From positions 373,099 through 437,098 of the forward strand of contig CP070719.1 in assembly GCA_020350725.1 (NCBI GenBank): 64,000 nucleotides of DNA, given 5' to 3'. A program made the position numbers and the translations under genes. Shown here piece after piece: positions 21,928 through 59,353 of the stretch. The DNA comes from a bacterium (GTDB lineage Bacteria; BMS3Abin14). The first letter of the stretch is position 1. Each line of letters begins with the position of its first letter. The notes beneath the pieces are model-generated. The model did no database searches. It had not been told where the DNA came from and saw only the letters and a list, made by a program, of their open reading frames with translations.

Positions 21928-21938
21928 AGGAGGCTCCC

Positions 21939-22259: not shown

Positions 22260-22275
22260 GTGGGAGATAACGTTC

Positions 22276-22815
22276 ATGGACAGTCTTCAGAACAGGTACC
22301 GCAAAGAGATCATCCCGGCGATGATGAAGAGATTCAACTACGGGAACATCATGCAGGTTCCCAGGCTGGAGAAGATCGTCATCAATATGGGACTGGGTGA
22401 CGCTCTTCAGAACGCCAGGATCCTCGACACGTCCATTGACGAGCTCTCCCTCATAACCGGCCAGAGACCGGTCCTGACCCGGGCAAGAAAGTCCATCGCG
22501 AACTTCAAGCTCAGGGAGGGAAATCCCATCGGCTGCATGGTCACGCTCAGGAAAAAGCGAATGTACGAGTTCCTCGACAGGCTGCTCAACGTCGCCCTGC
22601 CCCGGGTGAGGGACTTCAAAGGGACCTCACCGAAGGCTTTCGACGGTCGGGGAAACTACACCCTCGGCATCCGGGAACAGCTTATATTTCCCGAGATCAA
22701 TTACGATAAGGTGGAGCAGATCAAAGGGATGAACATCACCATCGTCACCACCGCCAAAACGGACGAGGAAGCCAGGGAGCTTCTGTCCCTTATCGGCGTG
22801 CCGTTCAGGAATTAG
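22276..22815 (+). CDS. rplE: 50S ribosomal protein L5
   Basis: L5 binds 5S rRNA and contacts P-site tRNA. From ATG 22276 (GGGAG ribosome binding site) it has 179 residues, the standard length; an upstream in-frame extension lies inside rplX and is rejected. The blocks [40 protein letters not shown] and [23 protein letters not shown] are clear. Confidence 0.96.
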
Positions 22816-22828
22816 GACTGGAGGAAAA

Positions 22829-23014
22829 ATGGCCAAGAAAGCCCTGATAAACAAGGCCAGGCGCGAACCGAAGTTCGCGGTGAGAAGCTACAATCGATGC
22901 CCCCTCTGCGGCAGGTCCAGGGGATATCTGAGAAAATTTGCCATGTGCAGGATCTGCTTCCGCGCACGAGCCCTCGCCGGGGAGATCCCGGGCGTGGTCA
23001 AGGCAAGCTGGTAG
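22829..23014 (+). CDS. rpsN: 30S ribosomal protein S14, zinc (type Z) form
   Basis: S14 belongs to the 30S head. At 61 residues this is the short zinc-ribbon form, with CPLC (C24/C27) and CRIC (C40/C43), rather than the longer zinc-free form. The [20 protein letters not shown] segment is typical. It sits between rplE and rpsH as expected, with AGGA at the ribosome binding site. Confidence 0.96.
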
Positions 23015-23024
23015 GAGGATCACC

Positions 23025-23423
23025 ATGTCCATGACCGACCCCGTAGCCGACATGCTCACCCGGATCCGGAACGCCCTTCTGGCGGGCAAGGAGAGGGTCG
23101 ATGTCCCCGCCTCCTCCCTGAAGGAGGACATCGCGAGGATCCTCAAGGAAGAGGGATATATCAAGAGCTACAAACTCATTGAGGACAGCAAGCAGGGAGT
23201 TCTCCGGGTCACCCTGAAGTACGGTGATCAGGCCACTCCCGCCATCACCGCGATCCGCAGGATCAGCAAGCCCGGACGGAGGGTCTACGTCAGCACGAAG
23301 GAAGTCCCGCGAGTGCTCAACGGCCTCGGGGTGGCCATCATGTCCACTTCGAAGGGCGTCATGACCGACAGGGAATCGCGAAAACAGAATGTCGGCGGCG
23401 AAGTGCTCTGCTACGTCTGGTAA
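23025..23423 (+). CDS. rpsH: 30S ribosomal protein S8
   Basis: S8 binds the central domain of 16S rRNA and in enteric bacteria represses the spc operon. ATG 23025 follows AGGAGG and gives 132 residues ([19 protein letters not shown]), with the C-terminal [25 protein letters not shown]. The longer frame from 22938 overlaps rpsN and is rejected. A 58-base spacer follows before rplF. Confidence 0.96.
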
Positions 23424-23481
23424 CGGCCCTCGGACGGCCCCAGGGTCGGACGGGGGAAGATTTCCCCTTGGAGCGAAAGAG

Positions 23482-24021
23482 ATGTCAAGAATCGGAAAGC
23501 ATCCTGTACAGATACCCGGCGGTGTAGAAGTCAGGTTCGAGGGACGGACGGTCTTCGCCAAAGGTCCTCTCGGAGAGCTCCAGCGGGATCTGCCCGCCGG
23601 TGTCGAACTGAAGATCGAGGAGGACAACATTCAGGTCCTTCCTCCCCAGAGGCCAAAGGAAAAGACCGCCATGCAGGGGCTCACCCGCACCCTCATCGAC
23701 AACCTGGTCGTCGGCGTCTCACAGGGATTCACCAAGGACCTCGACATGGAGGGAGTCGGCTACCGGGCCATGGTGAAGGGAAGGACCCTGGAGTTGATGG
23801 TCGGCTTTTCCAATCCGGTCCAGTTTGAGATACCGGAGGGTATCTCGGCGGAGGTCGGGCAGAATAACAGGATCACCATAAAGGGAATCAGCAAGGAGAA
23901 GGTAGGGCAGACGGCAGCGGACATCAGGGCCATCCGTCCCCCGGAACCCTACAAGGGTAAGGGTATCCGATACGCGGGAGAGCGGATCAAGCGCAAGGCG
24001 GGTAAGGCCGCGGTGACCTAA
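23482..24021 (+). CDS. rplF: 50S ribosomal protein L6
   Basis: L6 lies at the base of the factor stalk near the sarcin-ricin loop. From ATG 23482 it has 179 residues: [17 protein letters not shown] at the start, [19 protein letters not shown] in the middle and the family C-terminal block [25 protein letters not shown]. Upstream residues in this frame are not conserved L6 sequence. Confidence 0.97.
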
Positions 24022-24044
24022 CCTGCGCCTCGGAGGGTTCAAAA

Positions 24045-24413
24045 TTGACAAGGATCGAAGCGAAGACCGGCGCGCGCATCAAGAGGAGGAGGAGGATCCG
24101 CGGCAGGATCCGGGGAACGGCCGAACGGCCCCGCCTCTCGGTGTACCGAAGCGCCCGCCATATATATGCCCAGATCATCAACGACGATACGGGCGTCGTT
24201 CTGACCAGTGCGTCCACAGTTGACAGAGAACTCAGGGGGACGGTCAAGAACGGGGGTAACGCGGACGCCGCCCGCGAGGTGGGTAAGCTCCTCGCTACAC
24301 GCGCTGTGGAGAAGAGGGTTCAGAGTGTCACCTTCGACAGGGGAGGATTTCGCTATCACGGCAGGGTCAAAGCCCTGGCCGAGGCCGCCAGGGAGGGCGG
24401 GCTCAAATTCTAA
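24045..24413 (+). CDS. rplR: 50S ribosomal protein L18
   Basis: L18 binds 5S rRNA with L5. The 122-residue protein starts at TTG behind GGAGGG. Conserved segments are [31 protein letters not shown] and [24 protein letters not shown]. It is intact and 41 bases upstream of rpsE. Confidence 0.96.
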
Positions 24414-24454
24414 GGCCCCTGCCGGCCCCCCGACCGGGAAGGCGGCGCAGGAGC

Positions 24455-24994
24455 ATGGGAGTGACAATGAAGAGATCCTTAAAAAAGCCGCTCAGGGATG
24501 TCACCATCGACGAGACTGACCTGATCGACAAAGTCGTCTTCATCAACCGCGTGGCCAAGGTCGTCAAGGGCGGCAGGCGGTTTCGCTTCAGTGCCCTGGT
24601 GGTGGTCGGCGACGGAAAGGGAACAGTCGGCGTCGGCTCCGGCAAGGCGAACGAGGTGCCGGAGGCCATCCGCAAGGGCATCGACAACGCCAAGAAGAAT
24701 CTCCACAGGATACCCCTCAGCGGAACCACTGTGCCCCATCAGGTCATGGGCCGCTGGGGAGCCGCCAGGGTTCTTCTCAAGCCGGCCTCACCGGGCACGG
24801 GCGTTATCGCCGGCGGACCCGTGAGGGCTCTGATGGAATCCCTGGGTGTGAAGGACATCCTCACCAAGTGCATCGGGACGAACAATCCCAGCAACGTCCT
24901 CATGGCCTCTATGCAGGGGCTCCTTACTCTGAGAAGCCCGGAAGAGGTCGCTCTCCTCAGGGGCAAGAGTGTCGGTGACGTCCTCCACAGATAG
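24455..24994 (+). CDS. rpsE: 30S ribosomal protein S5
   Basis: S5 lines the mRNA entry channel and affects fidelity. The 179 residues include [48 protein letters not shown], the double-stranded RNA-binding fold, and the C-terminal [22 protein letters not shown] 24467 is an alternative start four codons later. It is followed by rpmD after 14 bases. Confidence 0.96.
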
Positions 24995-25008
24995 TGCGGG
25001 AGAGCATA

Positions 25009-25197
25009 ATGGCTAAGATCAGCATAACCCTGGTTCGAAGTACCATCGGCAGGCCCGAGAAGCACCGCAGGATCGTCCGCAGCCTCGGACTCAGAAAACT
25101 CCACCAGACGGTCTGTCACGACGACAACCCGAGAATCAGAGGCATGATCGAGAAAGTCCCCCATCTCGTCAGAGCCGAGGTCCTGGAGGAAAAATAG
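25009..25197 (+). CDS. rpmD: 50S ribosomal protein L30
   Basis: L30 is a small 50S protein absent from some lineages. From ATG 25009 (GGGAGAG upstream) it has 62 residues: [34 protein letters not shown]. Five more codons upstream overlap rpsE and have no support. rplO starts at the very next base after its stop. Confidence 0.95.
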
Positions 25198-25632
25198 ATG
25201 CTGGATCAGCTGAAATCCGCAAAAGGGGCGGCGAAAAAGAGAAAACGGGTCGGTCGCGGTCCGGGGTCAGGGATCGGCAAAACCTGCGGGCGCGGCGCCA
25301 ACGGACAGTGGGCCCGCTCCGGAGGCGGTGTCAAGGCCGGATTCGAGGGGGGACAGATGCCCCTTCAGCGGAGGCTTCCCAAGAGGGGTTTCACCAACAT
25401 CTTCCGGAAGGAATACTCCATTGTGAATCTCAAGGACCTGGGCCGGGTGGCCGACGTCGATGTCGTGGATCCCGATCTGATGATCAAGCTGAGGCTGGCG
25501 AGAAAAGGGCTCCCGGTCAAGATCCTGGGCGTCGGTGAGCTTGACCGACCTCTCACCGTGAGGGCCCACAAAGCAAGCCGGACTGCCGCCGAGAAGATCG
25601 AGAAGGCCGGTGGCAAAATCGAGATCATCTGA
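25198..25632 (+). CDS. rplO: 50S ribosomal protein L15
   Basis: L15 is a late-assembly 50S protein. The 144-residue protein has the Gly/Arg-rich N terminus ([53 protein letters not shown]) and a globular C-terminal half ending [15 protein letters not shown]. It abuts rpmD directly and precedes secY by 11 bases, the standard spc order. Confidence 0.96.
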
Positions 25633-25643
25633 GAGGGAACAAG

Positions 25644-26951
25644 TTGTTCAGCAGCCTACAGAATATCTTCAAGATCCCCGAACTGAAGAGGAGGATCTTC
25701 TTCACCTTCGGCCTGCTCGCCATCTACCGGGTGGGTGCCCATATTCCCACGCCGGGAATCGATGGGACGGCGCTGGCGGAGTTCTTCAGGCAGGCTCAGG
25801 GTACTCTGCTGGGATTCTTCGATATGTTCGCCGGCGGGGCGCTCCTGAGGATGACGATATTTGCCCTCGGGATCATGCCCTACATCAGCGCCAGCATCAT
25901 CATCCAGCTCCTGACCGTCGTCATCCCGCACCTGGAGAGGCTCTCCAAGGAGGGCGAGGCGGGCCGCAGGAAGATCATCCGTTACACCCGTTACGGGACG
26001 GTGGGGCTTGCCGCCTTCCAGAGCTTCGGCATCTCCGTCGGTCTGGAACAGATGACGAGCCCGGGGGGAGCGGCCATCGTGCCCTTTCCCGGCTGGGGTT
26101 TTCGCATGATGACGGTTATCAGCCTCACCGCGGGGACGGCCTTTATCATGTGGCTGGGTGAGCAGATCACGGAGAGGGGTATCGGCAACGGGATATCGTT
26201 GATCATCTTCGCCGGAATCGTCGCCAGGATGCCCACCGCCACCGGAAGGACGGTAACCCTTGTCAGAACAGGGGAAATATCGACCTTCCTGACGCTCTTC
26301 GTCCTGATCCTGATGGTGGCTGTCGTCGCCTTTATCATCTACATGGAGAGAGGTCAGAGGAAGATACCGGTCCAGTATGCCAAACGGGTCGTGGGGCGGA
26401 AGATGTACGGAGGGCAGAGCACGCACCTCCCCATGAAGGTGAACACGGCGGGGGTCATACCACCCATTTTCGCCTCCTCGATCCTCATGTTCCCTGCAAC
26501 GGTGGCCGGCTTCATCAAGAACCCCATCATGGAGGCGATCGCCAACACCTTCGCCCCCGGAAGGGCCCTGTACACCGTCCTTTACGTGGGCCTGATCATT
26601 TTCTTCTGCTATTTCTACACCGCGATCCAGTTCAACCCGGTGGACGTGGCGGACAACCTCAAGAAATATGGAGGTTACATCCCGGGCATAAGGCCGGGGA
26701 GGAAAACGGCCGAATACCTGGACAGGGTCCTGTCGAGGATCACATTCGGTGGGGCCATCTACCTGTCCCTGGTATGCGTCCTCCCCGAGATCCTCTACAG
26801 GATCTTTAATGTTCCCTTCTATTTCGGGGGCACAGGACTCCTCATCGTCATCGGCGTGGCCCTCGACACTGTCACTCAGATCGAGACCCATCTGCTCACC
26901 AGACACTACGAGGGGTTCCTCAAGAAGGGAAAGATCAGAGGGAGGCGCTGA
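25644..26951 (+). CDS. secY: Preprotein translocase subunit SecY
   Basis: SecY forms the protein-conducting channel in the inner membrane with SecE (604-789). The 435-residue protein starts at TTG after GAGGGA. It begins NIFKIPELKRRIFFTFGLLAIYRVGAHIPTPGI, has the plug and TM2 region GIMPYISASIIIQLLTVVIPHLERLSKEGEAGRRK, and the cytoplasmic loop QRKIPVQYAKRVVGRKMYGGQSTHLPMKVNTAGVIPPIFA. Ten membrane spans are expected. Its stop overlaps the adk start by one base. Confidence 0.97.
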   Translation: MFSSLQNIFKIPELKRRIFFTFGLLAIYRVGAHIPTPGIDGTALAEFFRQAQGTLLGFFDMFAGGALLRMTIFALGIMPYISASIIIQLLTVVIPHLERLSKEGEAGRRKIIRYTRYGTVGLAAFQSFGISVGLEQMTSPGGAAIVPFPGWGFRMMTVISLTAGTAFIMWLGEQITERGIGNGISLIIFAGIVARMPTATGRTVTLVRTGEISTFLTLFVLILMVAVVAFIIYMERGQRKIPVQYAKRVVGRKMYGGQSTHLPMKVNTAGVIPPIFASSILMFPATVAGFIKNPIMEAIANTFAPGRALYTVLYVGLIIFFCYFYTAIQFNPVDVADNLKKYGGYIPGIRPGRKTAEYLDRVLSRITFGGAIYLSLVCVLPEILYRIFNVPFYFGGTGLLIVIGVALDTVTQIETHLLTRHYEGFLKKGKIRGRR

Positions 26952-27595
26952 TGGACATTATCCTTCTCGGACCACCTGGAGCCGGAAAGGGAACTCAGGC
27001 GAAGTTCATGGTTGACAAGTGGGAGATCCCCCAGATATCGACGGGCGACATCCTGAGGGGCGCCGTCCGCGATGGCACTCCGCTCGGTCTTGAGGCCAAG
27101 GGCTTCATGGATCGGGGAGAGCTGGTCCCCGACCGGGTCGTTATCGGAATTATCGCCGAGCGCCTCAGGGAGGACGATGCCCAGAGGGGTTTTATCCTGG
27201 ACGGTTTCCCGCGCACCATTCCCCAGGCGGAGGCCCTGGAGGAGATTCTCACCGAACTCGGTCGCAATATCGACCATGTCGTCAGCATTGACGTGGACGA
27301 TGAGGAGCTGGTGAGAAGACTGACGGGGAGGAGGATGTGCAAGGGGTGCGGAGAGAGTTTCCACATGGTCTTCAACCCCCCCCGGACGGAGGGCGTGTGC
27401 GACAGCTGCCGGGGGGAGCTCTATCAGCGGGACGACGACAACGAGGAAACCATCCGGCAACGACTCAAGGTGTACAACGACCAGACCTCCCCCCTGATCG
27501 ATTTCTACAGAGGGCTGGGAAAACTTCGGGAGATCAATGGGACGCGAACTCCCCCCGAGATCTTCTCCGACATCGTGAGCACCCTGTCCGGGTAG
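26951..27595 (+). CDS. adk: Adenylate kinase
   Basis: Adenylate kinase interconverts ATP + AMP and 2 ADP. The 214-residue protein has the P loop GPPGAGKGTQAKF (residues 7-19), DGFPRT for nucleotide binding and a long LID domain. The LID carries four cysteines (CKGC...CDSC, about residues 129-155), so it is the zinc-binding long form. It is translationally coupled to secY, as in many bacteria. Confidence 0.97.
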   Translation: MDIILLGPPGAGKGTQAKFMVDKWEIPQISTGDILRGAVRDGTPLGLEAKGFMDRGELVPDRVVIGIIAERLREDDAQRGFILDGFPRTIPQAEALEEILTELGRNIDHVVSIDVDDEELVRRLTGRRMCKGCGESFHMVFNPPRTEGVCDSCRGELYQRDDDNEETIRQRLKVYNDQTSPLIDFYRGLGKLREINGTRTPPEIFSDIVSTLSG

Positions 27596-27659
27596 GGCTC
27601 ACGGATCAGGCTCCCGTGAATCCCCTCACGTCCCGGGGTGGGAACAACGAAACCTCCCG

Positions 27660-28409
27660 ATGATATACAGAAAGTCAGCGGCTGAGATAGGCCTCATGAG
27701 GGAGGGCGGCAAGGCCGTTGCCAGGATCCTTGAAAGAATGAGGGATGTCGTAAGGCCGGGCGTCCCGACATCCGAGATCGAGCAGGAAGCCGAAGGGATG
27801 TCCAGGACCCTCGGGATCGTACCCGCATTCAAGGGGTACATGGGTTACCCCAGCAGTATTTGCGTCTCCATCAACGATGAGGTGGTACACGGCATCCCCT
27901 CGGAGAAGAGGCTCCTCAAGGGAGGCGACATCGTCGGTCTCGACTTCGGTGCCCTGTATCAGGGATATTACGCCGATGCGGCCATCACTCTCCCCGTTGG
28001 AGAACTCGAGGGTGAGGCCGAGCATCTGCTCAAGGTCACGAGGGAGGCTCTTTTCAAGGGAATCGAGGCCGCGGTGGTCGACAACCGCGTGGGGGACATC
28101 TCCCACGCCGTTCAGAACCACGTGGAGAGCCACGGTTACTCGGTGGTGAAGACCTTTGTCGGCCACGGGATCGGACGAAAGCTCCATGAGGAGCCGCAGG
28201 TTCCCAACTTCGGGAGCCCCGAGTGGGGCGCCCGGCTGAAGGAGGGAATGACCCTGGCCATCGAACCTATGGTCAACGCAGGATCCGACGGTATCAGGGT
28301 CCTCGACGACGGCTGGACAGCGGTCACAATGGACGGCAGCCTGTCAGCTCATTTCGAACATACGGTCGCGGTCACGGCCAACGGTCCGATGATCCTGACC
28401 GATATCTGA
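27660..28409 (+). CDS. map: Methionine aminopeptidase, type I
   Basis: This cytosolic metalloenzyme removes the initiator methionine from new proteins. The 249 residues contain the metal-ligand blocks GLDFGALYQGYYADAAIT, VGHGIGRKLHEEPQVPNFG and GMTLAIEPMV, plus the final glutamate segment HFEHTVAVT. It is the short type Ia form without an N-terminal extension. The secY-adk-map-infA order is conventional. Confidence 0.97.
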   Translation: MIYRKSAAEIGLMREGGKAVARILERMRDVVRPGVPTSEIEQEAEGMSRTLGIVPAFKGYMGYPSSICVSINDEVVHGIPSEKRLLKGGDIVGLDFGALYQGYYADAAITLPVGELEGEAEHLLKVTREALFKGIEAAVVDNRVGDISHAVQNHVESHGYSVVKTFVGHGIGRKLHEEPQVPNFGSPEWGARLKEGMTLAIEPMVNAGSDGIRVLDDGWTAVTMDGSLSAHFEHTVAVTANGPMILTDI

Positions 28410-28436
28410 GAGGCGGGCGGAGGAGAGAAAAGGGAT

Positions 28437-28655
28437 ATGGCTAAGGAAGAAGCGATTGAGGTCGAAGGAACGGTGGTGGAGCCTTTGCCCAACGCCATGT
28501 TCAGGGTTGAGCTCGAGAACGGCCACCAGGTCCTGGCGCATATCTCCGGCAAGATGAGGATGCATTACATCAGGATATTGCCCGGGGACAGGGTAACGGT
28601 TGAGCTCTCGCCCTACGACCTGACCAGGGGAAGGATAACTTACAGGGCAAAATAG
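28437..28655 (+). CDS. infA: Translation initiation factor IF-1
   Basis: IF-1 is an OB-fold protein that blocks the ribosomal A site during initiation. The 72-residue protein has the normal length and motifs: [38 protein letters not shown] and [11 protein letters not shown] at the end. AGGAG lies upstream. rpmJ follows after 25 bases. Confidence 0.97.
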
Positions 28656-28680
28656 CCTTCCCGAAAGGAAATTGTGAGAG

Positions 28681-28794
28681 ATGAAAGTCAGACCATCTGT
28701 CAAGAAGATGTGCGACAAGTGTAAGATCATCCGCCGCAAAGGGGTTGTGAGGGTGATCTGCGAGAACCCGAAGCATAAGCAGCGGCAGGGATAA
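28681..28794 (+). CDS. rpmJ: 50S ribosomal protein L36
   Basis: L36 is the smallest 50S protein. The 37-residue sequence is [20 protein letters not shown]... with C11, C14, C27 and H32 forming the zinc site, so it is the C+ form. GAGAG precedes the ATG. It lies between infA and rpsM as usual. Confidence 0.96.
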
Positions 28795-28812
28795 TACTGA
28801 GGAGGTACTGCA

Positions 28813-29184
28813 GTGGCGCGTATCGCCGGAGTGGACTTACCGAGGAGCAAAAGGATCGAGGTCGCCCTGACCTACATCTACGGGATCGGCCCGACCAAGG
28901 CCGCGCAGATAGTCAGGGATTCCGAAGTCGATCCGAATACCAGGGTTAACGAGCTGGATGAGACCCAGGTCAGCCGACTGAGGGACACCATCGTCAAGAA
29001 CCACATGGTGGAGGGCGACCTCCGCAGGGAGGTCTCATTCAATATCAAACGCAAGATGGACCTCGGTTCATACGAGGGGCTGCGCCACAGACGAGGTCTG
29101 CCCGTCCGGGGCCAGAGGACCAAAACCAACGCGAGATCCAGGAAGGGACACAAACCTTCCATTGGCGGCAGGAAGAAGAAGTAA
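28813..29184 (+). CDS. rpsM: 30S ribosomal protein S13
   Basis: S13 contacts P-site tRNA and forms intersubunit bridges. The 123-residue protein starts at GTG behind [32 protein letters not shown] at the start and the C-terminal [26 protein letters not shown] block match the family. rpsK follows after 21 bases. Confidence 0.97.
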
Positions 29185-29205
29185 GCGTCTGCACTGGAGG
29201 AAACG

Positions 29206-29595
29206 ATGGCTAGACCGAAGAAGGGATCTGCCCGAAAGGTTAAGAAGAACATACCGGTTGGTGTGGCCCACATTCAGGCGACATTCAACAACACGATCAT
29301 CACCATCACCGACCCCTCTGGAAATACCGTCGCCTGGTGCAGCGCCGGCAGCAAGGGTTTCAAGGGATCGAGGAAGAGCACGCCTTTTGCCGCCCAGCTG
29401 GCCGCTGAGGATGCAGCCAAAAAGGCCATGGAGCACGGTGTGCGCAGGGTGGATGTTATGGTCAAAGGACCGGGATCGGGGCGTGAGGCCGCCCTCAGAT
29501 CCCTCCAGGCCGCCGGCCTTGAGGTCACCATGATCCGTGATGTCACACCCATCCCCCATAATGGATGCAGGCCTCCCAAGAGGCGGAGGGTTTAG
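29206..29595 (+). CDS. rpsK: 30S ribosomal protein S11
   Basis: S11 forms part of the platform near the E site. The 129-residue protein has [30 protein letters not shown] and the C-terminal [44 protein letters not shown]. Length and order are standard. A 66-base spacer separates it from rpsD. Confidence 0.97.
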
Positions 29596-29661
29596 ATCCC
29601 AGTGGGATACAGAGGGTCCACGAGAAGATATCTGCACTGTCTGTGATCAAGGAGGACGAAA

Positions 29662-30288
29662 TTGGCTCGATACAGAGAATCAGTCTGTCGACTCTGCAGA
29701 AGAGAGGGTACGAAGCTCTTCCTCAAGGGAGATCGATGCTATTCGGATAAATGTGCCGTTGAGCGCCGGCCCTATCCCCCCGGAGTGCATGGGACGAGGC
29801 GGATGAAACACTCCGACTACGGTGTCCAGCTCCGGGAGAAGCAGAAGGCCAAGAGGATCTACGGGGTCATGGAATCCCAGTTCCGGAATTACTTCAAAAC
29901 GGCCGACCGGATGAAGGGCGTGACGGGGGAAAATCTGCTTGTCCTCCTCGAGAGGCGCCTGGACAGCACCGTTTTCCGCCTCGGGTTCGCCCAGTCGAGG
30001 GCGGATGCCAGACAGCTCATCCGCCACGGTCATCTTCTGGTCAACGACAGGAAAGTGGACATCCCGTCCTACAGCCTCCGACCGGGTGACGTCATCCAGA
30101 TCAGGGAAAAGAGCAGGAACTCGGTGCGGATCCAGGAAGCTCTTGTCGCGGCGGAGAGGAAGAGCGTGCCGGCCTGGCTTGACCTGGAGGTCAAGGATTT
30201 CAAGGGCACCTTCAGGAACTACCCGAGCCGGGATGAGATTGCCCTGCCCGTCCAGGAACAGCTCATAGTGGAGCTTTACTCCAAATAG
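29662..30288 (+). CDS. rpsD: 30S ribosomal protein S4
   Basis: S4 nucleates 16S rRNA assembly and in many bacteria represses the alpha operon. The 208-residue protein starts at TTG after AAGGAGG ([22 protein letters not shown]). Four cysteines in the first 32 residues (CRLC, then C...C) make it the zinc-binding C+ form. The S4 RNA-binding domain is [42 protein letters not shown]. It precedes rpoA by 27 bases. Confidence 0.97.
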
Positions 30289-30315
30289 GGCCGAACCTGC
30301 GAGGAGAGATAAACC

Positions 30316-31344
30316 ATGTTGGAAAAGAATTGGAAGAGCCTTACCCGCCCTAAGAAACTCGATTTTGATGTCGAATCGAAAACAGACACATTCTGCAGGT
30401 TCACGGCTGAGCCCTTCGAGAGGGGATTTGGAACCACCCTGGGGAACGGGTTGAGGAGGATCCTCCTGTCTTCCCTTCAGGGGGCTGCGATCACGGCGTT
30501 CCGGGTCGAGGGGGTGCTCCACGAATTTTCGACCATCCCGGGGGTTTTCGAGGATGTCACCCAGATCGTGCTCAATCTCAAGGAGCTCCGGTTCAGGGTT
30601 CACACCGATAAAGCCAAGATCATCTCCCTGGACATGAACCAGGAGGGTGTCGTCACGGGGGGCGATATCATCACCGATCAGGACGTGGAGATCCTCAATC
30701 CTGAGAAGGTGATCGCCACCCTGGAAAAAGGCGCCCATCTGAAGATGGAAATGGTTGTCCGCCTGAACAGCGGTTTCATCACATCGGACAGGAACAAGGA
30801 CGAGGATCTCCCGGTGGATTTCATCGCCCTCGATTCCATCCATTCGCCCATAATCAAGGTGAATTACTGGGTTGAGAACGCCAGGGTGGGGCGGATGACA
30901 GACTTCGACAAGCTCAGCATGGATATCACCACAGACGGCAGCATTTCGCCTGAGGATGCCCTGGCCATCTCGGCCAAGATCCTCAAAGAGCACATGACCC
31001 TCTTCATCAACTTCGAGGAGCACGATATCACCGAGGAAGAGGCGGAGAGGGAGTCGGAGGAGGAGCGGCAGCGGCTCTACGAGAAGCTCAACAAGCACGT
31101 CAACGAGCTCGAGCTCTCCGTCCGGTCCATCAACTGCCTTCAGAATGCCAATATCGGGACCATCGGCGAGCTGGTTCAGAAGACCGAAGCCGACATGCTG
31201 AGGACCAAGAACTTCGGCAGAAAGTCCCTCAATGAGCTGAAGGAGATCCTCGATGAGATGAAGTTGAGCTTCGGTATGGATATAAAGGGCTGGACGCCTG
31301 AACAAGCCGGGTTCGAGGAGGAAGAACTGTCTGAGGAGGCCTAG
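30316..31344 (+). CDS. rpoA: DNA-directed RNA polymerase subunit alpha
   Basis: The alpha subunit dimerises to start polymerase assembly, and its C-terminal domain touches UP elements and activators. The 342 residues show the N-terminal domain motif [41 protein letters not shown] and the C-terminal helix-hairpin-helix [44 protein letters not shown] (about residues 262-305). Between them is an acidic linker ([13 protein letters not shown]). It sits between rpsD and rplQ as usual. Confidence 0.97.
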
Positions 31345-31384
31345 CGGGCCGATCAGATTTCGTCAGGGAAAGGCAGGAGATTTC

Positions 31385-31969
31385 ATGCGTCATCTTAAAT
31401 CAGGGAAAAAACTGGGAAGGACCCCGTCTCACCGGAAGGCCCTCTTCCGGAATATGGTCACCTCTCTCCTCCAGCATGAAAGGATCGTGACCACGGAGGT
31501 GAAGGCCAAGGAGGTGGGCAGATTGGCGGAAAAGATGATCACCCTCGGTAAGCGGGGAGACCTGCATGCCAGACGGCAGGCCATCGCCTTCGTCAGGAGC
31601 AACGAGGTCGTGAAACGGGTCTTCACCGAATATGCCGAGAGGTACAGGAACAGAGAGGGTGGTTATACCCGGGTTCTCAAGCTCGAGCCCAGGTCCGGTG
31701 ACAACGCACCCATGGCCCTGGTGGAACTGGTGGACCGTCCGGTCCGGGAGCCGGCTAAGGAGAAGAAGCCCGCCAAGGAGGCAGCGAAGAAAGCGAAAGC
31801 CCCCGAGAAGAAGGAAAAGGCCGCCAAGCCGAAAAAGGCGCCTGCCAAAAAGGCCGGGAAAGAGGAGGAGAAGCCGGCGGCCAAAAAAACCACCAAGAAG
31901 GCTGCAGCTGAGAAAAAAGCGCCCCCATCAGCAGCGAAGAAGAAAACCGCCGAGAAGGGGACTGAATAG
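31385..31969 (+). CDS. rplQ: 50S ribosomal protein L17 with long Lys/Ala-rich tail
   Basis: L17 lies near the tunnel exit. The first 120 residues are normal L17: [43 protein letters not shown] and the C-terminal [12 protein letters not shown]. They are followed by about 74 residues made almost only of Lys, Ala, Pro and Glu, many in AKK or KKA units (31744-31966), bringing the total to 194 against 115-130 in most bacteria. The tail resembles histone-H1-like disordered sequence and probably binds RNA; that is inference. A terminator follows. Confidence 0.95.
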
Positions 31970-39951: not shown

Positions 39952-41754
39952 ATGACATCCAAACAGGACCACATCAGGAACTTTTCCATAATAGCCCACA
40001 TTGATCACGGCAAGTCCACCCTGGCCGACAGGATCCTGGAGATGACCGGAGCGGTCACCGGGAGAGAGATGACCGGCCAGGTGCTGGATTCCATGGATAT
40101 CGAGAGGGAGAGGGGAATCACCATCAAGGCTCAGACGGCCCGCATAACCTACCGTGACTCGGGGGGAAGGGAATACCAGCTCAATCTCATCGATACGCCG
40201 GGGCATGTCGACTTTTCCTATGAGGTCTCCAGATCCCTGGCCGCCTGTGAAGGGGCGCTTCTCGTGGTGGATGCGGCCCAGGGGGTCGAGGCCCAGACGA
40301 TAGCGAACGCATATCTGGCCGTAGAACAGGATCTGACTATCATACCCGTTATCAACAAGATCGACCTGCCCGGTGCCGAGCCGGACAGGGCCAAGGAGGA
40401 GTTGAGCACCCTGCTCGGTATCGATCCGGCTGATGTCCTGGAGATCAGTGCGAAGGAAGGGACCGGGATGGTGGACCTGCTGGAGGCGATCGTGTCGAGG
40501 ATCCCCCCGCCGGCGGGAGATGTGGACGAGCCGCTGAGGGCCCTCATCGTAGACTCATGGTATGACAATTACGTGGGCGTCGTGGCCCTTGTGAGGGTAT
40601 TTCAGGGGGCCATGACATCGCGGTCCGGCATCCGGTTGATGGTTCAGGGGGGGGACTATGAATTGGGTGACATCGGCGTTTTCGTGCCTGCCGCCAGGAC
40701 CGTCAAATCCCTGGCCGCCGGCGAGGTGGGCTACATCGTCCCCGGCATCAAGGACCTGAAAAAAGTGCAGGTCGGTGACACGGTCACCCATAAGGCGCGT
40801 CCGGCCAGTGACCCTCTGCCCGGGTTCAGACGGATGAGGCCCATGGTCTTTGCCGGAATGTATCCTGCCGCAAGCGAGGACTTTGCCGCCCTGAGAGAGG
40901 CTCTGGGAAAACTGCAGCTTAACGATTCCTCCCTGGTCTTCGAGCCCGAGACATCCGTGGCCCTCGGTTTCGGTTTCCGCTGCGGCTTCCTGGGGATGCT
41001 GCACATGGAGATCGTGCAGGAGCGGCTGGAGAGGCATTTCGAGCTCGACCTCGTGACCACTGCCCCCACGGTCGTCTACCGGGTCATGACCAGGGACGGG
41101 CGGTGGGTAGAGGTGGACAACCCGGCCAAGATGCCGTCTGCCGGGGAGGTGGAGGAGATCCACGAACCCCACGTCCGAGGAACGATCATGCTCCCGGATA
41201 ATTATCTCGGGGGCATCCTGGCACTGCTCACCGAACGCAGGGGGGAGCAGCGGGCAATGAATTACCTTGAGGACAGGAGGGTCATTCTCGAGTATGATAT
41301 CCCACTGTCCGAGGTCATCTATGATTTTTATGATAGACTCAAGAGCCTCAGCCGGGGATACGCTTCCCTGGATTACGATCCCATAGGCTACAAGGTCGGA
41401 GACCTGGTCAAATTGGACATCAGGGTGAACGGGGAGGCGGTGGATGCTCTTTCCGTCATCGTTCCCAAGGAAAGAGCCTACCACAGGGGGCGGGACCTCG
41501 CCGGGAGGATGAAGGAACTGATCCCCCGCCAGATGTTCGAGGTCGTGATCCAGGCATCCATCGGAAGCCGGATCATCGCCCGGGAAACAGTCAAACCTAT
41601 CAGGAAGAACGTCCTGGCCAAATGCTACGGGGGGGATGTAACGCGGAAGCGGAAACTCCTGGAGAAGCAGAAAGAGGGCAAAAAGAGGATGAAGAGCATC
41701 GGCAGGGTCCAGATCCCCCAGGACGCCTTCATGGCCATCCTGAAGGTGGAATAA
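39952..41754 (+). CDS. lepA: Elongation factor 4 (LepA GTPase)
   Basis: LepA is a ribosomal GTPase that acts in initiation or back-translocation. From ATG 39952 it has 600 residues, the normal length: [16 protein letters not shown] (G1), [40 protein letters not shown] and NKIDLPGA. The LepA-specific C-terminal domain appears as [21 protein letters not shown] and the terminal [27 protein letters not shown]. An in-frame extension upstream is not conserved. lepB follows after a repeat-bearing spacer of 129 bases. Confidence 0.96.
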
Positions 41755-41784
41755 TTGGACCTGGAGATAAGTCCCCCGTTCCAA

Positions 41785-41846
41785 GTTCCAGGTGCCAGGC
41801 TGTTGTCATCAGTGAGACCGGGCAAATGACTCCTGGAACCTGGAAC
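41785..41846 (+). repeat. Degenerate inverted repeat between lepA and lepB
   Basis: GTTCCAGGTGCCAGG (41785-41799) and CCTGGAACCTGGAAC (41832-41846) are reverse complements at 14 of 15 positions around a 32-base centre. A related copy of the left arm word (GTTCCAA) lies just before it. No T run follows. Confidence 0.6.
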
Positions 41847-41883
41847 CGGATGATCAGGATCGATTCATGACCAAGGAGGAAAA

Positions 41884-42555
41884 GTGTCGGTGGACCGGGA
41901 CAAGGCAGCTCCGCAGCAGCAGGGAGGAGGGCCCCTTTCGATGAGAAGGTTGTGGCCGAGGGGCAAACTCTGGGAGTATCTCGAGGCGATCATTCTCGCC
42001 CTCGTTCTGGCCCTGTTCATAAGGACTTTCGTCGTCCAGGCCTTCAAGATCCCGTCGCCGTCCATGGTCCCGACCCTTCTTGTCGGAGACCACATCCTCG
42101 TCAACAAGTTCCTCTACGGTTTCACCGTCCCCTATACGGACAACAAGGTCCTGGCCCTGAGGACGCCCGATCAGGGGGATGTCGTCGTCTTCAAGTACCC
42201 CAAGAACAAGAAAATGGATTTCATCAAGCGATGCGTCGCGGTGGGCGGTGACACGCTCCAGATCAAGGAAAAGACCCTCTACGTCAACGGGGAAAAGGTC
42301 CCCGATGAGCATGCGGTCTTCCTCAGCGAAGGCGGTTCTTCCCTCCTCAAGGGAAGGGACGATTTCGGCCCGGTCACGGTGCCCGAAGGGAAAATATTCG
42401 TGATGGGTGACAACAGGGACAACAGCAACGACAGCCGATTCTGGGGCTTCGTGGATATTTCCGAGGTCAAGGGAAAGGCCATGGTGATCTACTGGTCGTG
42501 GGACAGGGCGAGGAAGTGGCCGAGGTTCTCCCGTATCGGAGACGTCGTGAGGTAG
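41884..42555 (+). CDS. lepB: Signal peptidase I
   Basis: Signal peptidase I removes signal peptides from exported proteins at the periplasmic face. The 223-residue protein starts at GTG 41884 behind AAGGAGG (GTG 41890 is an alternative). One membrane anchor (YLEAIILALVLALFIRTFVVQAF, about 31-53) precedes the catalytic serine S60 in SPSMVPTLL and the lysine base K115 in IKRCVAVGGD. The SNDSRFWGFV box D/E is present. lepA-lepB adjacency is very common. Confidence 0.95.
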   Translation: MSVDRDKAAPQQQGGGPLSMRRLWPRGKLWEYLEAIILALVLALFIRTFVVQAFKIPSPSMVPTLLVGDHILVNKFLYGFTVPYTDNKVLALRTPDQGDVVVFKYPKNKKMDFIKRCVAVGGDTLQIKEKTLYVNGEKVPDEHAVFLSEGGSSLLKGRDDFGPVTVPEGKIFVMGDNRDNSNDSRFWGFVDISEVKGKAMVIYWSWDRARKWPRFSRIGDVVR

Positions 42556-42689
42556 GTCCGACGTTCCGCGCCTCCCCGGCCGCAGGTTCATGCCGGGGCT
42601 GGCTCCAAATCCTGTCCCGGGAAGCCGCGGAGGGGAAACCTGCCTTCAGGGTGCCTGGGGAATGCTCTCTTTCAGCCTTTAACCAGAAC

Positions 42690-42736
42690 TTTCCACCCTC
42701 TCAAACCCCTTTTCCCTTTCCTCCTTTTCTGCTAAT
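42690..42736 (+). other. Polypyrimidine tract upstream of small membrane gene
   Basis: Within the 189-base lepB-42745 spacer, about 45 bases are almost only C and T, ending near the TAATAAAT just before the next ATG. There is no Shine-Dalgarno sequence for that ATG. No hairpin is evident in the tract itself. Confidence 0.5.
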
Positions 42737-42744
42737 AAATCCCC

Positions 42745-43122
42745 ATGAACAAGCAGCGGCTGAAGAACCTTCTCCTCCTCCTCGTCGCCGGCTATCTGAT
42801 CGTCTCCGGTGTCAAGCTGGGGACTCCGTGGCTGCGCAACCAGATGTTCGTGGAGGAGATGGACAATCAGGCCAGGGCCCTTGTCGTGGACGGAACGGCT
42901 GAGCGAACAACGAGGAGGCTCCTGGAATCTGCCCGGGGGTACAAGATCCCCATCGACGAGAGAAACCTCACTGTGATCAGGGACCTCGAGAGGGGCCAGG
43001 TGCTGGTGGAGGCCAAGTACAGGGTTGTGGTCGTCCTTCCCTTCGGCCTCTACACCCACACCTGGAATTTCAATCCCCGTTTCGTGAGGGTCATCCCGTC
43101 CAAGCTCCGGGGCAGATTCTGA
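42745..43122 (+). CDS. Small membrane-anchored protein of unknown function
   Basis: The 125-residue protein has one N-terminal membrane span (KNLLLLLVAGYLIVSGVKL, about 7-25) and a mixed alpha/beta periplasmic-looking domain ending VVVVLPFGLYTHTWNFNPRFVRVIPSKLRGRF. The layout (short anchor, small domain, next to lepB) recalls DUF4845-type proteins, but I cannot confirm that. There is no clear ribosome binding site. It is the last gene before the pyrimidine promoter. Confidence 0.65.
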   Translation: MNKQRLKNLLLLLVAGYLIVSGVKLGTPWLRNQMFVEEMDNQARALVVDGTAERTTRRLLESARGYKIPIDERNLTVIRDLERGQVLVEAKYRVVVVLPFGLYTHTWNFNPRFVRVIPSKLRGRF

Positions 43123-43248
43123 GTGGGTTCTGCGATGCCTTCCGGCCAGCGGCGGTGCAGCCGTTAGGACTCCCTCTGCCGACCGGAGGTCCCCTTTACT
43201 TTTTCCCCCGCTCAAGCTGTTGATTTCCCTCGCGAATCTCAAGGGGGG

Positions 43249-43276
43249 TTGACAACAATACGGGGAAGGGTAATAA
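43249..43276 (+). promoter_or_regulatory. Promoter of the pyrimidine operon
   Basis: TTGACA at 43249-43254 is followed after 16 bases by TAATAA (43271-43276). Transcription would start near 43283 and produce a leader of about 250 bases before pyrR. Confidence 0.65.
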
Positions 43277-43282
43277 AGGTAT

Positions 43283-43536
43283 CCGGATCTTGACCCTTTA
43301 ATCTAATTCCGTGAGATTAGAAAGGGAACCGCAGTGAAAGATGTGCCGAAAATGACGAGTGCAGGCCCCACCGTTCTGAAGCGGGGGGGCTTTTTTTTGC
43401 TCTGTCGGGTGGGGTGGTTTGCCGGTGATCCCTTACGCATGACTCGGGGGAAGATGGTTGCCGGTTCCATGGTGCCGGTCCCCAGACCGTAAAAACGGGG
43501 CCACCCGGACCGGCCGATCAATCAGAGGGTGACGAC
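43283..43536 (+). promoter_or_regulatory. pyr operon leader with PyrR-type attenuator
   Basis: A short hairpin TCTAAT/ATTAGA (43302-43321) presents the loop TCCGTGAG, which resembles the PyrR binding-loop consensus (UCCNGNGAGG) with one base missing. About 40 bases later is the terminator at 43363-43398. After that, GCCGGTCC (43474-43481) and GGACCGGC (43507-43514) form a perfect 8-bp stem just before the pyrR ribosome binding site. PyrR with UMP would be expected to favour termination; I did not fold the antiterminator. Confidence 0.6.
43363..43398 (+). terminator. Attenuator terminator upstream of pyrR
   Basis: GCCCCACCG (43365-43373) pairs with CGGGGGGGC (43382-43390) with one A-G mismatch, followed by eight T. 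It lies between the promoter and pyrR, as expected of an attenuator. Confidence 0.85.
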
Positions 43537-44085
43537 ATGAAGGGAAGAAGGCAAAGAGAGATCCTCGAGCAGGGCGATATCGATCGCGCGGTGAGGAGAA
43601 TCGCCCACGAGATCCTGGAGAAGAACAAAGGGGCGTCAGATCTCATTCTCATCGGCATACCCACACCGGGACCGGTGCTGGCCAGACGGATCAAGGCTCT
43701 GATCGAGGAGGCGGAGGGTGTCTCCGTTCCCGCGGGCAGCCTTGATATCACCTTCTACCGTGACGATATCTCAAAAAGGCCAAAGCCGCTGCCGAAACAC
43801 ACCGATCTCCCGTCCAATATCGACGGAAAGACAGTGGTTCTCATCGACGATGTGCTCTTCACAGGCAGGACCATCCGGGCTGCCCTGGATGCCCTGATGG
43901 ACCACGGAAGGCCATCCAAGGTCCAGCTGGCGGTCCTGGTGGACCGCGGGCACCGGGAACTTCCGGTCAGGGCGGACTTCGTCGGCCGCAATATCCCGAC
44001 GGGCAGACACGAGGAGATCCACGTTCTGCTGAGCGAGATGGGGCACGATGAGGACAAGGTGTACATCACCGAGGGGGAAGTATAA
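43537..44085 (+). CDS. pyrR: Bifunctional pyr operon regulator / uracil phosphoribosyltransferase
   Basis: PyrR binds pyr mRNA in a UMP-dependent way and often has weak uracil phosphoribosyltransferase activity. The 182-residue protein has the PRPP motif VVLIDDVLFTGRTIRAALDAL (about 97-117), the LILIGIPTPGPVLARRI segment and a basic RNA-binding face. GAGGGTGA precedes the ATG. It leads the operon right behind an attenuator, so autoregulation of the whole cluster is likely. Confidence 0.95.
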   Translation: MKGRRQREILEQGDIDRAVRRIAHEILEKNKGASDLILIGIPTPGPVLARRIKALIEEAEGVSVPAGSLDITFYRDDISKRPKPLPKHTDLPSNIDGKTVVLIDDVLFTGRTIRAALDALMDHGRPSKVQLAVLVDRGHRELPVRADFVGRNIPTGRHEEIHVLLSEMGHDEDKVYITEGEV

Positions 44086-44180
44086 GGATCCGAAATCCAA
44101 GGTCCAAAATCCAAAAACACCCTTCTTGCGAATAGTCATCGGCGGTCTGTTTTTGACCTCGGACTCTGGATTTTGGGCTG
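44086..44180 (+). repeat. Degenerate inverted repeat between pyrR and pyrB
   Basis: The spacer begins with the repeated words AAATCCAAGGTCC and AAAATCCAAAA (44093-44115) and ends with TTTTTGACCTCGGACTCTGGATTTTGG (44150-44176), roughly their reverse complement with gaps. The centre is unpaired. It looks like the elements at 1861, 41785 and 46431. Confidence 0.55.
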
Positions 44181-44196
44181 TTCTGGAGGAACGCTC

Positions 44197-45132
44197 ATGA
44201 TCGGTAACAACCGTCACCTTCTGGACCTCGATACCACCTCCGCCGAGGATATCAGGCGGATCCTGGACACGGCGGAGGGCATGAAGGAGATCTCCACCCG
44301 AAAGATCAAGAAGGTCCCCACTCTTCGCGGGAAAACGGTGGTGAATCTGTTCTTTGAACCGAGTACCCGGACCCGGACATCCTTTGAGATCGCCGCCAAG
44401 AGGCTCTCGGCGGACGCAGTGAATTTCACGGCCTCCGCCAGCAGCACCGCCAAGGGCGAGACACTCCTGGACACAGCCAAAAATCTCGATTCCATGGCTC
44501 CCGATGTGGTGGTCATCCGTCACAGGTTCTCGGGAGCTCCGGAGATCCTGGCCCGGAACCTCGACTGCTCGGTGGTCAACGCCGGTGACGGATGCCATCA
44601 ACACCCCACCCAGGGCCTCCTGGACCTGTTCACCGTTCGGGAACGAAAGGGGAGGCTGGACGGCCTGAAAGTGTCCATCATCGGCGACATCGCCCACAGC
44701 CGTGTTGCCCGGTCGGATATCTCGGGTTTTACAACCATGGGGGCGGAGGTCTTCGTCAGCGGACCGTCGACCATGATCCCCACCGGCATAGAGCGGCTGG
44801 GCGTCAGGGTGGCGGACAGCTTCGAGCACGCCCTCGAGGGAGCGGACGTGATCATCATGCTCAGGATCCAACTCGAGAGGAGGAGCGGGTCCCTTATTCC
44901 CACCTTGAGGGAGTATGCCCGCTTCTTCGGGCTCAACCGGGAGAGACTCCGGCTGGCCAGACCGGATGCCCTCGTCATGCATCCGGGGCCGATCAACCGA
45001 GGCGTCGAGATCTCCTCGGATATCGCGGACGGTCCCGAAAGCGTGATCCTGGATCAGGTGGAAAACGGTGTGGCGGTGAGGATGGCGGTCCTGTACCTGC
45101 TGACTGGAGGGAGCGATGAAACGACTGATTAA
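44197..45132 (+). CDS. pyrB: Aspartate carbamoyltransferase catalytic subunit
   Basis: PyrB condenses carbamoyl phosphate with aspartate. From ATG 44197 (GGAGGA upstream) it has 311 residues. [13 protein letters not shown] (about 52-64) binds the phosphate, [13 protein letters not shown] (about 132-144) and [12 protein letters not shown] complete the active site. No regulatory PyrI gene is present, as in class B/C enzymes. It overlaps pyrC by 17 bases. Confidence 0.97.
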
Positions 45133-46411
45133 AGGCGGCAGGATCCTCGACCCCGCCAGCGGCAGAGACGAGATCCTGGATCTGCTCATCGAGGACGGTC
45201 GCATCGCCCGGCTCGAAAAAGACATGAAGGATCGGGATGGGGGGGACGTCTTCGACGCTTCGGGCCTGGCGGTAATGCCCGGCTTTATCGACATGCACTG
45301 CCACCTCAGGGAACCGGGCTACGAATACAAGGAAACCGTCGCCACAGGCTGTGCCGCGGCCGTCAAGGGAGGGATCACCTCCCTGATGTGCATGGCCAAC
45401 ACCGACCCCGTCAACGATTGTGCCTCAGTGACCACCCATATCCTGGAAAGGGCGCACGAGGCAGGCCTGGCGAAGGTCTACCCGGTGGGATGCCTGACCA
45501 AGGGTATGAGGGGCGAATCCCTGTCGGAAATGGGTGAATTGGCCGCATCGGGGTGTATCGCGGTCTCCGATGACGGCAGGCCGGTGCCCAGCGGCGAGAT
45601 CATGAGGAGGGCCATTGCCTATGCCGGCATATACGGACTTCTGGTGATCGATCACGCGGAGGACCTGACCATCGCCGGGGACGGTGTGATGCACGAGGGG
45701 TACGTTTCCACCATGTTGGGGCTGGAGGGGATACCCGCCTCGGCGGCCTTTTCCGAGGTGGCCCGGAACATCGCCCTGATAAAGGAGTTCGGCGGACGGA
45801 TCCACATCGCTCATGTGAGCACGGCCATGGTGGTGGGGCTCGTAAGGCGGGCGAAGGCTGAAGGTCTCGCCGTGACCGCTGAGACGTGTCCCCACTACTT
45901 CACCCTCGATCACGAGGCCGTCATCGGCTATGACACCAACGCAAAGGTAAAGCCGCCCCTGAGGACCGCGGAGGACGTGGAAGCGATCATCGAGGGGCTG
46001 GCCGACGGGGCCATTGACGTCATCGCCACCGACCACGCGCCCCACCACGCCGATGAGAAGCAGGTGGAATTCGACCTGGCGGCATTCGGGATCTCAGGCC
46101 TGGAGACGGCCTTCGCTCTGACAATGGGCCTCGTCCACGGGGGGCGCATTCCCATCCTGCAGGCTGTCTCCAAGTGGACCGATGCCCCGGCCGCTGTCAC
46201 GGGGATCCGGGGCGGATCCCTCGGGGTGGGAGAGCCTGCCGACGTCGTCATCGCCGACCTGGATGCCCAATGGAGGGTGAACCCGGAAGAATTCCTCTCC
46301 CGGGGCAGAAACTCGCCCTTTGCCGGTATGGAGGTGAGAGGCCAGGTGACCGCCACCTTCGTGGATGGAAGACTGGTCTACACCAGGGAGAAGGGGATCA
46401 CAGGTAAATAG
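45116..46411 (+). CDS. pyrC: Dihydroorotase (class I)
   Basis: PyrC cyclises carbamoyl aspartate to dihydroorotate with a binuclear zinc site. The 431-residue protein has the class I motif [16 protein letters not shown] (about 59-74), [10 protein letters not shown], the HIAHVSTAM block and ATDHAPHH (about 304-311). All metal ligands appear present, so it is likely an active enzyme rather than an inactive PyrC' partner. Its start lies within the end of pyrB. Confidence 0.96.
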
Positions 46412-46430
46412 GAATTCAGAAGACAGTAGT

Positions 46431-46518
46431 CAGTATTCAGGAAAAATTCCTTCGTAACGCCCTTAGGGGGAATCAGTAAAGACCCTGCGGAATGCCGAAT
46501 ACCGGGTCCTGAACACTG
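46431..46518 (+). repeat. Degenerate inverted repeat between pyrC and carA
   Basis: CAGTATTCAGGA (46431-46442) and TCCTGAACACTG (46507-46518) are reverse complements at 11 of 12 positions. The left side continues outward as low-complexity GAATTCAGAAGACAGTAGT. The 116-base spacer carries only this element and the carA ribosome binding site. Confidence 0.55.
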
Positions 46519-46527
46519 GAGTTCAAA

Positions 46528-47703
46528 TTGCTCAGTCTTTCCCAGATCCTCAAGGAAAACAAACCCAGGGCCACGCTGGCTCTGGCCGACGGGACGCTCT
46601 TCCGCGGCTGGGGATTCGGGGCCAGGGGACCGGCGACGGGAGAGGTCGTGTTCAACACCTGCATGACGGGGTATCAGGAGGTGCTCACGGATCCGTCCTA
46701 CCACCGCCAGATCGTGGTGATGACTCCGGTTCAGATTGGAAATACGGGCGTCAACCCTTTCGACGGTGAATCCTCCAGGCCCTGGGTTGCCGGGTTCGTC
46801 GTCCGGGAAAGCTCCATCATCACCAGCAGCTGGCGCGCCGAGGAGGGGATGGAGGAATACCTTGCCAGAAACGGCATCACGGGGATCGAGGGGATCGATA
46901 CCAGGGCGCTCACCCGGCATATCAGGGACAAGGGCGCCCAGGGGGGGGTGATCGGGATCGGAGAGACGGATCCCGATGAGCTCGTCGCCCGGGCCCGGGC
47001 CTGGGGCTCCATGGAGGGGAAGGACCTCGTTGCCGAAGTCACTCCCGATGGTGAGTATGGATGGGAGGAAGGTCCCTACCATCCGGTTCTCGGATTCCGT
47101 CCCACCGTGATGAGCCGGCACGTCGTCGCCATGGATTTCGGCATCAAGAGAAATATCCTGCGGGAGCTGGCCGGCATGGGCTGCAGGGTGACGGTGGTGC
47201 CGGCCGGTACGGCACCGGAGAGGATCATGGAACTGGGACCTCACGGTCTGTTCCTGTCCAACGGTCCCGGAGATCCCGATCCGGTTCGGTACGCAGTGAA
47301 GACGGTCAGGGAACTGCTGGGCAGGCTGCCCGTCTTCGGTATCTGCCTGGGGCACCAGATCCTCGGCCTGGCCCTCGGCGGCAGGACGTACAAGCTTACA
47401 TTCGGCCATCACGGGGGCAATCACCCCGTCATGGACCTCGAGACGGGAAAGGTGGAGATCACCAGCCAGAACCACGGATTCGTGGTCGATCCTGATTCCC
47501 TGCTGGCGGCGGGGCAGAGAGTGGCGGTGACCCATGTCAATTTGAACGACCGGACGGTGGAGGGAATCCGACACACCGAGATCCCGGCTTTCTCGGTCCA
47601 GTATCACCCTGAAGCTTCGCCGGGCCCCCGCGATTCTCACTATCTCTTCCAGAGGTTTATCGACCTGATGGATGAACACGGGACGAAGAGCCGGGGCGGA
47701 TGA
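46528..47703 (+). CDS. carA: Carbamoyl-phosphate synthase small (glutaminase) subunit
   Basis: CarA hydrolyses glutamine and passes ammonia to CarB. The 391-residue protein starts at TTG 46528 (TGGAG upstream). The N-terminal half has [25 protein letters not shown], and the class I glutaminase triad is C273 (GICLGHQ), H360 and E362 ([13 protein letters not shown]). It is followed by carB after 82 bases. The start of that spacer has no recognisable site. Confidence 0.96.
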
Positions 47704-59309: not shown

Positions 59310-59353
59310 GAGATCCGGGCATCAGCGCATCCGGCGGCTGATGTCCCGATCTC
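59310..59353 (+). repeat. Inverted repeat between HD-GYP and GGEEF genes
   Basis: GAGATCCGGGCATCAGC (59310-59326) and GCTGATGTCCCGATCTC (59337-59353) pair at 15 of 17 positions around a 10-base loop, flanked by GAATTC and TATTC words as in other spacers. No T run follows, so it is not a simple terminator. Confidence 0.6.

Follow-up and report, generated by a model that had tools for sequence, protein, structure and literature searches.

Over-representation of heptamers in bacterial genomes has long been noted, without a settled explanation. The closest published case to the elements described here is class 3 (Gmet_I3) of Geobacter metallireducens, in which about five tandem heptanucleotides per site are arranged as opposite-strand pairs in intergenic DNA, one of them between proB and proA (PMC2700814). 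Gmet_I3 comprises 8 pairs built from one word, was described as unique to the G. metallireducens genome, and was classed as putative global regulator sites, for which the authors proposed IHF/HU (PMC2700814). Heptamers of the GGGNATC type in Xanthomonas and Nostoc are intergenic, sometimes inverted in convergent spacers, and variable among relatives (PMC4692102). Beggiatoaceae carry 169 tandem heptamer sets of TAACTGA, mostly intergenic; these are direct and mostly lie just upstream of start codons, with related heptamers rare and one indirect repeat reported (PMC4679880). Polymerase slippage has been proposed as the reason for the seven-nucleotide unit (PMC4692102, PMC4679880).

The window analysed here is a 64,000-nucleotide stretch of a bacterial genome of the BMS3Abin14 lineage (contig CP070719.1, positions 373,099 to 437,098). 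Its spacer at 44086-44180 separates two genes that we take, from knowledge of the families, to be pyrR and pyrB. Similar to class 3 of G. metallireducens, the elements found in such spacers carry tandem heptanucleotides at each site, in opposite-strand pairs at variable distance. Unlike the 8 one-word pairs of class 3, they comprise hundreds of arrays and many words, with exchange between relatives. The doubled class 3 consensus MTYCTGA, with at most 1 mismatch, gave 62 + 63 matches compared to 11 + 20 for the reversed control; it is near ATTCAGT/ACTGAAT and the word of the 46412 element, whereas most elements, including 44086, use others. The Gmet_H4 heptads (GGGACCG) of G. metallireducens are likewise tandem and dispersed in the genome but also occur inside genes, where the heptads described here almost never lie. 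A contig of Geobacter sp. carried GGGACTC/GGGACCG arrays with an inverted partner. The GGGNATC-type repeats differ in having one G-rich word, quadruplex potential and occasional inverted pairing, and TAACTGA of Beggiatoaceae in being a single, direct word.

REP, BIME and REPIN elements, with RAYT, are inverted pairs in spacers that show strain-to-strain turnover. Compared to these, the present elements have no constant 20-40 bp palindrome with a GTAG/CGTC-type tag, their arms being many different tandem heptads, and a RAYT gene is inconsistent among array-bearing genomes. Unlike a MITE, the 44086 element has a loop with no other copy, although composite islands do have as much as 480 bp in common. 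The ribbon-helix-helix omega repressor reads 7-bp WATCACW heptads, which the AATCACG word found here resembles. Because paired and tandem heptads have been published, the kind of element is already known; what appears to be new, from a limited search of the open-access literature, is how many words there are, the scale on which they occur and their exchange at orthologous junctions.

Inverted repeats in the window

The sequence-only reading had pointed to inverted repeats in five spacers of the window. All five were real and lay within about 10 bases of where it had placed them (Table 1). Each spacer was compared separately with 1000 dinucleotide-preserving shuffles, and every repeat beat most of them (p 0.001-0.033). 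The strongest inverted repeats were 41775-41849, 44090-44176 and 59310-59353. The arm length given earlier, 12-17 bases, was too short, as the best cases reach about 28-35. When folded as RNA, four of the five elements exceeded their shuffles in stability (z -2.7 to -3.4), and 46412-46525 did not (z -0.8).

Enrichment was assessed in 163 spacers. These came from the window and from 20 stretches placed at systematic intervals along the 2.78-Mb genome. Inverted repeats scoring at least 10 were found in 19% of spacers compared to 1.8% of shuffles, and those scoring at least 12 in 8.6% compared to 0.2%. An excess over shuffled spacers was therefore present, and the observation of inverted repeats stands. 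Gene calls and gene starts came from a home-made script, with names taken from sequence and general knowledge; some spacers contain short pieces of coding sequence, as at lepB.

Table 1. Coordinates of the inverted repeats of the window, their arms and the genes flanking the pyrR-pyrB element.
Feature	Start	End	Strand	Sequence or remark
pyrR, gene upstream of element	43537	44085	+	ORF and translation; pyrR-pyrB order same in relatives
Arm 1, pyrR-pyrB element	44088	44119	+	heptads ATCCGAA ATCCAAG GTCCAAA ATCCAAA A
Loop, pyrR-pyrB element	44120	44147	+	
Arm 2, pyrR-pyrB element	44148	44176	+	TGTTTTTGACCTCGGACTCTGGATTTTGG; near-complement of arm 1
Stem, pyrR-pyrB element	44090-44119	44148-44176		score 11, p 0.003
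pyrB (aspartate carbamoyltransferase), gene downstream of element	44197	45132	+	
Arm 1, lepA-lepB element	41771	41799	+	GTCCCCC GTTCCAA GTTCCAG GTGCCAG G
Arm 2, lepA-lepB element	41832	41849	+	CCTGGAA CCTGGAA CCGG
Stem, lepA-lepB element	41775-41792	41832-41849		score 13, p 0.001
Arm 1, pyrC-carA element	46412	46442	+	GAATTCA GAAGACA GTAGTCA GTATTCA GGA
Arm 2 region, pyrC-carA element	46486	46518	+	TGCGGAA TGCCGAA TACCG ... TCCTGAACACTG
Stem, pyrC-carA element	46431-46442	46507-46518		score 9.5, p 0.008
Inverted repeat, rplK-rplA spacer	1854	1958	+	partial heptads TTCTAAT TTCTATT CTCCAAT
Stem, rplK-rplA spacer	1854-1873	1939-1958		score 10, p 0.033 (weakest of five)
Inverted repeat	59310	59353	+	GAGATCCGGGCATCAGC / GCTGATGTCCCGATCTC; heptads weak
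Stem, same repeat	59310-59326	59337-59353		score 12, p 0.001

Heptad unit, pairing and position

Recurrent low-complexity words had been noticed in the arms, and they reflect a heptanucleotide period that the earlier reading missed. The arms are composed of degenerate tandem heptanucleotides such as TCCAAAA, TTCCAAG and ATTCAGT. Autocorrelation of 141 N-free spacers peaked at lag 7 (z = 19), with further peaks at 14, 21 and 28; coding sequence showed period 3 only, so that the 7-nt periodicity is confined to spacers. With N masked, 103 arrays were counted in 399 kb of systematic sample, 102 of them outside genes, which by extrapolation gives about 700 arrays genome-wide. The arrays comprise 91 consensus heptamers, and 13 words, with at most 1 mismatch, cover 247 of 290 arrays (85%) when biased stretches are counted in. 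These biased stretches are the first 20 sampled, picked around TTCCAAGTTCCA matches, and the enrichment figures are therefore based on the 20 systematic stretches. A weaker lag-8 signal was also seen in the spacers of the genome (19 arrays compared to 0-7 at other non-7 lags); the heptads may be accompanied by octanucleotide arrays resembling Geobacter class 1.

Pairing was examined in 102 spacers of at most 300 bp, chosen for a direct heptad array alone with pairing ignored. The reverse complement of the array was present in its own spacer (score at least 10) in 35% of cases, compared to 3% in length-matched other spacers. Inverted partners in the own spacer were strongly enriched (permutation z = 19), whereas direct copies barely were (z = 2). 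The same test including long spacers was uninformative because long spacers hold several word families. A comparison of own and same-family partners, biased in that its elements were selected by pairing, was left out of the evidence. Loops between arms ranged from 9 to more than 190 bp, with no orientation or fixed-distance rule for the arms and no clear bias of arm orientation relative to transcription (A>T 21:11, G>C 19:11).

Most of each gap is taken up by its element. Between co-directional genes, elements start a median of 13.5 bases past the upstream gene and stop 21.5 before the next; between convergent genes, the distances to the two genes are 11 and 6 bases. At pyrR-pyrB, 4 bases separate the pyrR stop codon from the paired arm. 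The elements had been described as lying between co-directional genes, and 20% of co-directional spacers do carry an array; as a restriction this failed, the share being 41% for convergent spacers and 21% for divergent ones.

Dispersal of arms through the genome

Arm 1 of the pyrR-pyrB element (its first 30-40 bases) had about 50 matches at other places in the genome, and the loop had no second copy anywhere in it. In exact searches, ordered variants TCCAAAA-TCCAAAG-TCCAAAA recurred at many loci. Independent local slippage would not produce ordered variants common to so many places. Long spacers join several word families end to end, giving composite repeats that reach 480 bp and are common to 51 spacers; among the matches listed, which lie in both orientations, most pairs share 70-96% identity.

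Non-coding islands of 0.5-1.9 kb with several concatenated heptad families were seen at L046:14252-16150, at L065:3481-5272 and in other long spacers, and are possibly degenerate larger elements. Several other features of the assembly were recorded. Runs of 100 N occur in the sampled stretches L039-L069, L048 for example having five, and 24 such runs lie in spacers; they are either assembly gaps or withheld sequence. The sole SSU rRNA match in the genome (G000:C1:2474515-2474894) covers model positions 34-540 only, and the 16S gene looks split, incomplete or gap-cut. A match to the Rfam cspA thermoregulator (84.7 bits) lies at L046:16580-16929.

Recurrence and replacement at gene junctions of relatives

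The comparison drew on a family of 12 genomes. A phylum-wide search returned the same 12, and the lineage is thus sparsely sampled. Most of the comparison genomes consist of many contigs and were probably assembled from metagenomes. Dispersed repeats can cause misassembly; the exchanged blocks described below are located inside contigs with collinear flanks. Arrays were present in all eight relatives sampled, at about 1-15 per 10 kb, compared to at most 1 per 20 kb in seven unrelated genomes. Recurrence at lepA-lepB, lepB-pyrR, pyrR-pyrB and pyrC-carA was above all 5000 permutations, also with gaps of at least 60 bp only. No elements were seen at the ribosomal-protein junctions of 17049-31453.

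Of 10 family genomes, 7 have a heptad element between pyrR and pyrB, built from one of four words: the window genome uses TCCAAAA, G004 and G011 share TCCAAAG, G003 and G006 TCCAGAG, and G002 and G008 ATCTCAA. The G006 element is mainly one arm. Spacer length was 102-115 bp in five genomes, and the element-free gap in G001, G009 and G010 was 0-22 bp. Base-level homology between different words at this junction cannot be assumed.

G002 and G011, whose pyrB genes are 95% identical, allowed a closer comparison. The collinear DNA compared is 85-96% identical and is interrupted by 15 non-homologous blocks; by reading of the alignment output, one genome or both had a heptad array at 14 of these, and most array-bearing spacers had been replaced. 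Where both genomes had arrays (eight blocks), six showed different words, one a common word and one an expansion of the same word. Orthologous spacers bearing arrays were 0.17-0.86 identical (n = 13, median 0.58), compared to 0.70-0.97 for five of six array-free spacers, the sixth having been replaced. The earlier statement that the spacers differ in sequence while keeping pairing proved to be its strongest part: orthologous junctions carry different words, each complemented, in line with the 35% compared to 3% found in the partner test.

The lepA-lepB junction has a core of about 75 bp that is clearly homologous among G002, G011, G008 and G004, with each pairwise score greater than all 1000 shuffles. 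The words on either side of this core are GTGAACC..GGTTCAC in G002 and G011, but GTGATTA..TAATCAC in G008; both arms have switched word together around a conserved core. The core reads CTTTGG-TTTT..TAAAATC..CTCA..CGTTT (L222, L230; G004 and G011 spacers), and is perhaps a promoter or leader of lepB. The similar pyrR-pyrB spacer length and the conserved lepA-lepB core would suit some function better than pure drift.

RNA or DNA level

Selection for pairing in the transcript should leave more G-U than A-C mismatches on the transcribed strand. In the stems of 55 co-directional heptad elements the ratio was 49:42 (p 0.53), showing no excess, and the counts in other inverted repeats were 41 and 43. 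Terminator-like sites in 41500-47000 were not above shuffles and none lay at the elements. Intrinsic terminators, with a G+C-rich stem, short loop and T run, were rejected on this result, and known Rfam RNA families were rejected since the elements gave no match at gathering score. The folding energy of entire spacers discriminates weakly (mean z -0.8). The proposal that the repeats are RNA stabilisers or nuclease sites gained no support from the mismatch ratio or from the terminator-like sites. Taken with the lack of arm orientation bias and of an Rfam match, these results favour a DNA-level origin, with which an RNA consequence is still compatible.

Discussion

The elements have a heptad unit, pair specifically within their own spacer, have arms dispersed through the genome, recur at the same junctions and were exchanged, as whole elements or as both arms, between close species. 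They are unusually fast-changing intergenic DNA whose function is so far only putative. With moderate confidence we regard them as a large dispersed non-coding DNA repeat that is spread and renewed at the DNA level and rapidly exchanged at gene junctions. In each element, two short degenerate heptad arrays would lie in inverted orientation with a unique loop between them, and the whole would occupy the space between a stop codon and the following ribosome-binding site or a facing stop codon. Arm sequences may be copied from locus to locus, arrays may slip in steps of 7 nt, and hairpin-templated copying or gene conversion may re-make the second arm from the first, so that complementarity would outlast word change. 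Gene junctions would be the places that tolerate such turnover, and any effect on neighbouring genes would come from a hairpin or cruciform rather than a particular sequence. Of three ideas offered by the sequence-only reading, a small mobile repeat family comes nearest: dispersed arms and exchange among close relatives agree with it, whereas the unique loops do not, making the elements unlike an ordinary MITE. No transposase or other enzyme could be linked to the elements: Y1/REP-type transposases gave no match in G007 and G011, both of which have arrays. Reading empty and filled sites by eye established neither an insertion footprint nor a target duplication.

Other explanations account for parts of these data. 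If the elements were paired binding sites of one or more DNA-binding proteins, such as nucleoid or global regulators that each read a heptad word while the arms are bridged or looped, one would expect the small set of words covering most arrays, some of which recur across genera, the layout of paired opposite-strand sites known from G. metallireducens (PMC2700814), and a conserved core between the arms as at lepA-lepB. However, 91 consensus words are hard to reconcile with sequence-specific binding, words were swapped at one junction between species with nearly identical pyrB, and the arms follow no orientation or distance rule, which leaves this explanation unlikely. Selection for pairing in intercistronic RNA hairpins, acting as mRNA stabilisers, processing sites or insulators like the REP downstream of malE, would agree with the location between stop codon and RBS, the folding of four of the five window elements and the retention of pairing as words change. 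We consider it quite unlikely, as G-U pairs are not in excess, divergent spacers also carry arrays, loops are often long, and the junctions are empty in three relatives.

Dispersed copies, inverted ends and the coexistence of filled and empty sites would also be expected of a conventional non-autonomous transposon, either a MITE or a REPIN mobilised by a RAYT-type Y1 transposase. The genome has two Y1 genes (L245, L246), one of them about 100 bp from the heptad array AATCACC AATTACG AATCACT, with an N run adjoining; but the second has no nearby array, loops are unique, no constant end tag was seen, and PF01797 (Y1) had no match in G007 and G011, which are array-bearing incomplete drafts. RAYT/Y1 transposase was rejected as a general driver on this last result, and a transposon of this kind appears improbable. 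Plain slippage, in which neutral heptamer microsatellites are over-represented because a 7-nt unit suits polymerase slippage and acquire inverted partners via template switching with neither dispersal nor function, draws on published heptamer over-representation and slippage proposals (PMC4692102, PMC4679880) and on the single same-word expansion between G002 and G011. It is very improbable, since both the ordered variants common to dispersed loci and the coverage of most arrays by few words require copying between loci.

A bolder reading is that the elements belong to a widespread, so far unrecognised class of intergenic DNA cassettes, exchanged at junctions by a dedicated mechanism that re-makes both arms together. 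We put this forward tentatively, as a possibility on the doubtful side. Were it true, neighbouring species would keep a hairpin at a junction while its sequence is replaced. Paired heptads were also found in contigs labelled Geobacter, Myxococcales, Nitrospira and Omnitrophota, and cassettes in these would make the phenomenon a general bacterial one.

Wholesale exchange at junctions with 85-96% identical flanks, together with the joint change of both arms, offers a concrete system in which to test how palindromic repeats stay symmetrical, whether by selection or by hairpin-templated copying. It is also a warning that such spacers are not to be taken for conserved regulatory motifs.
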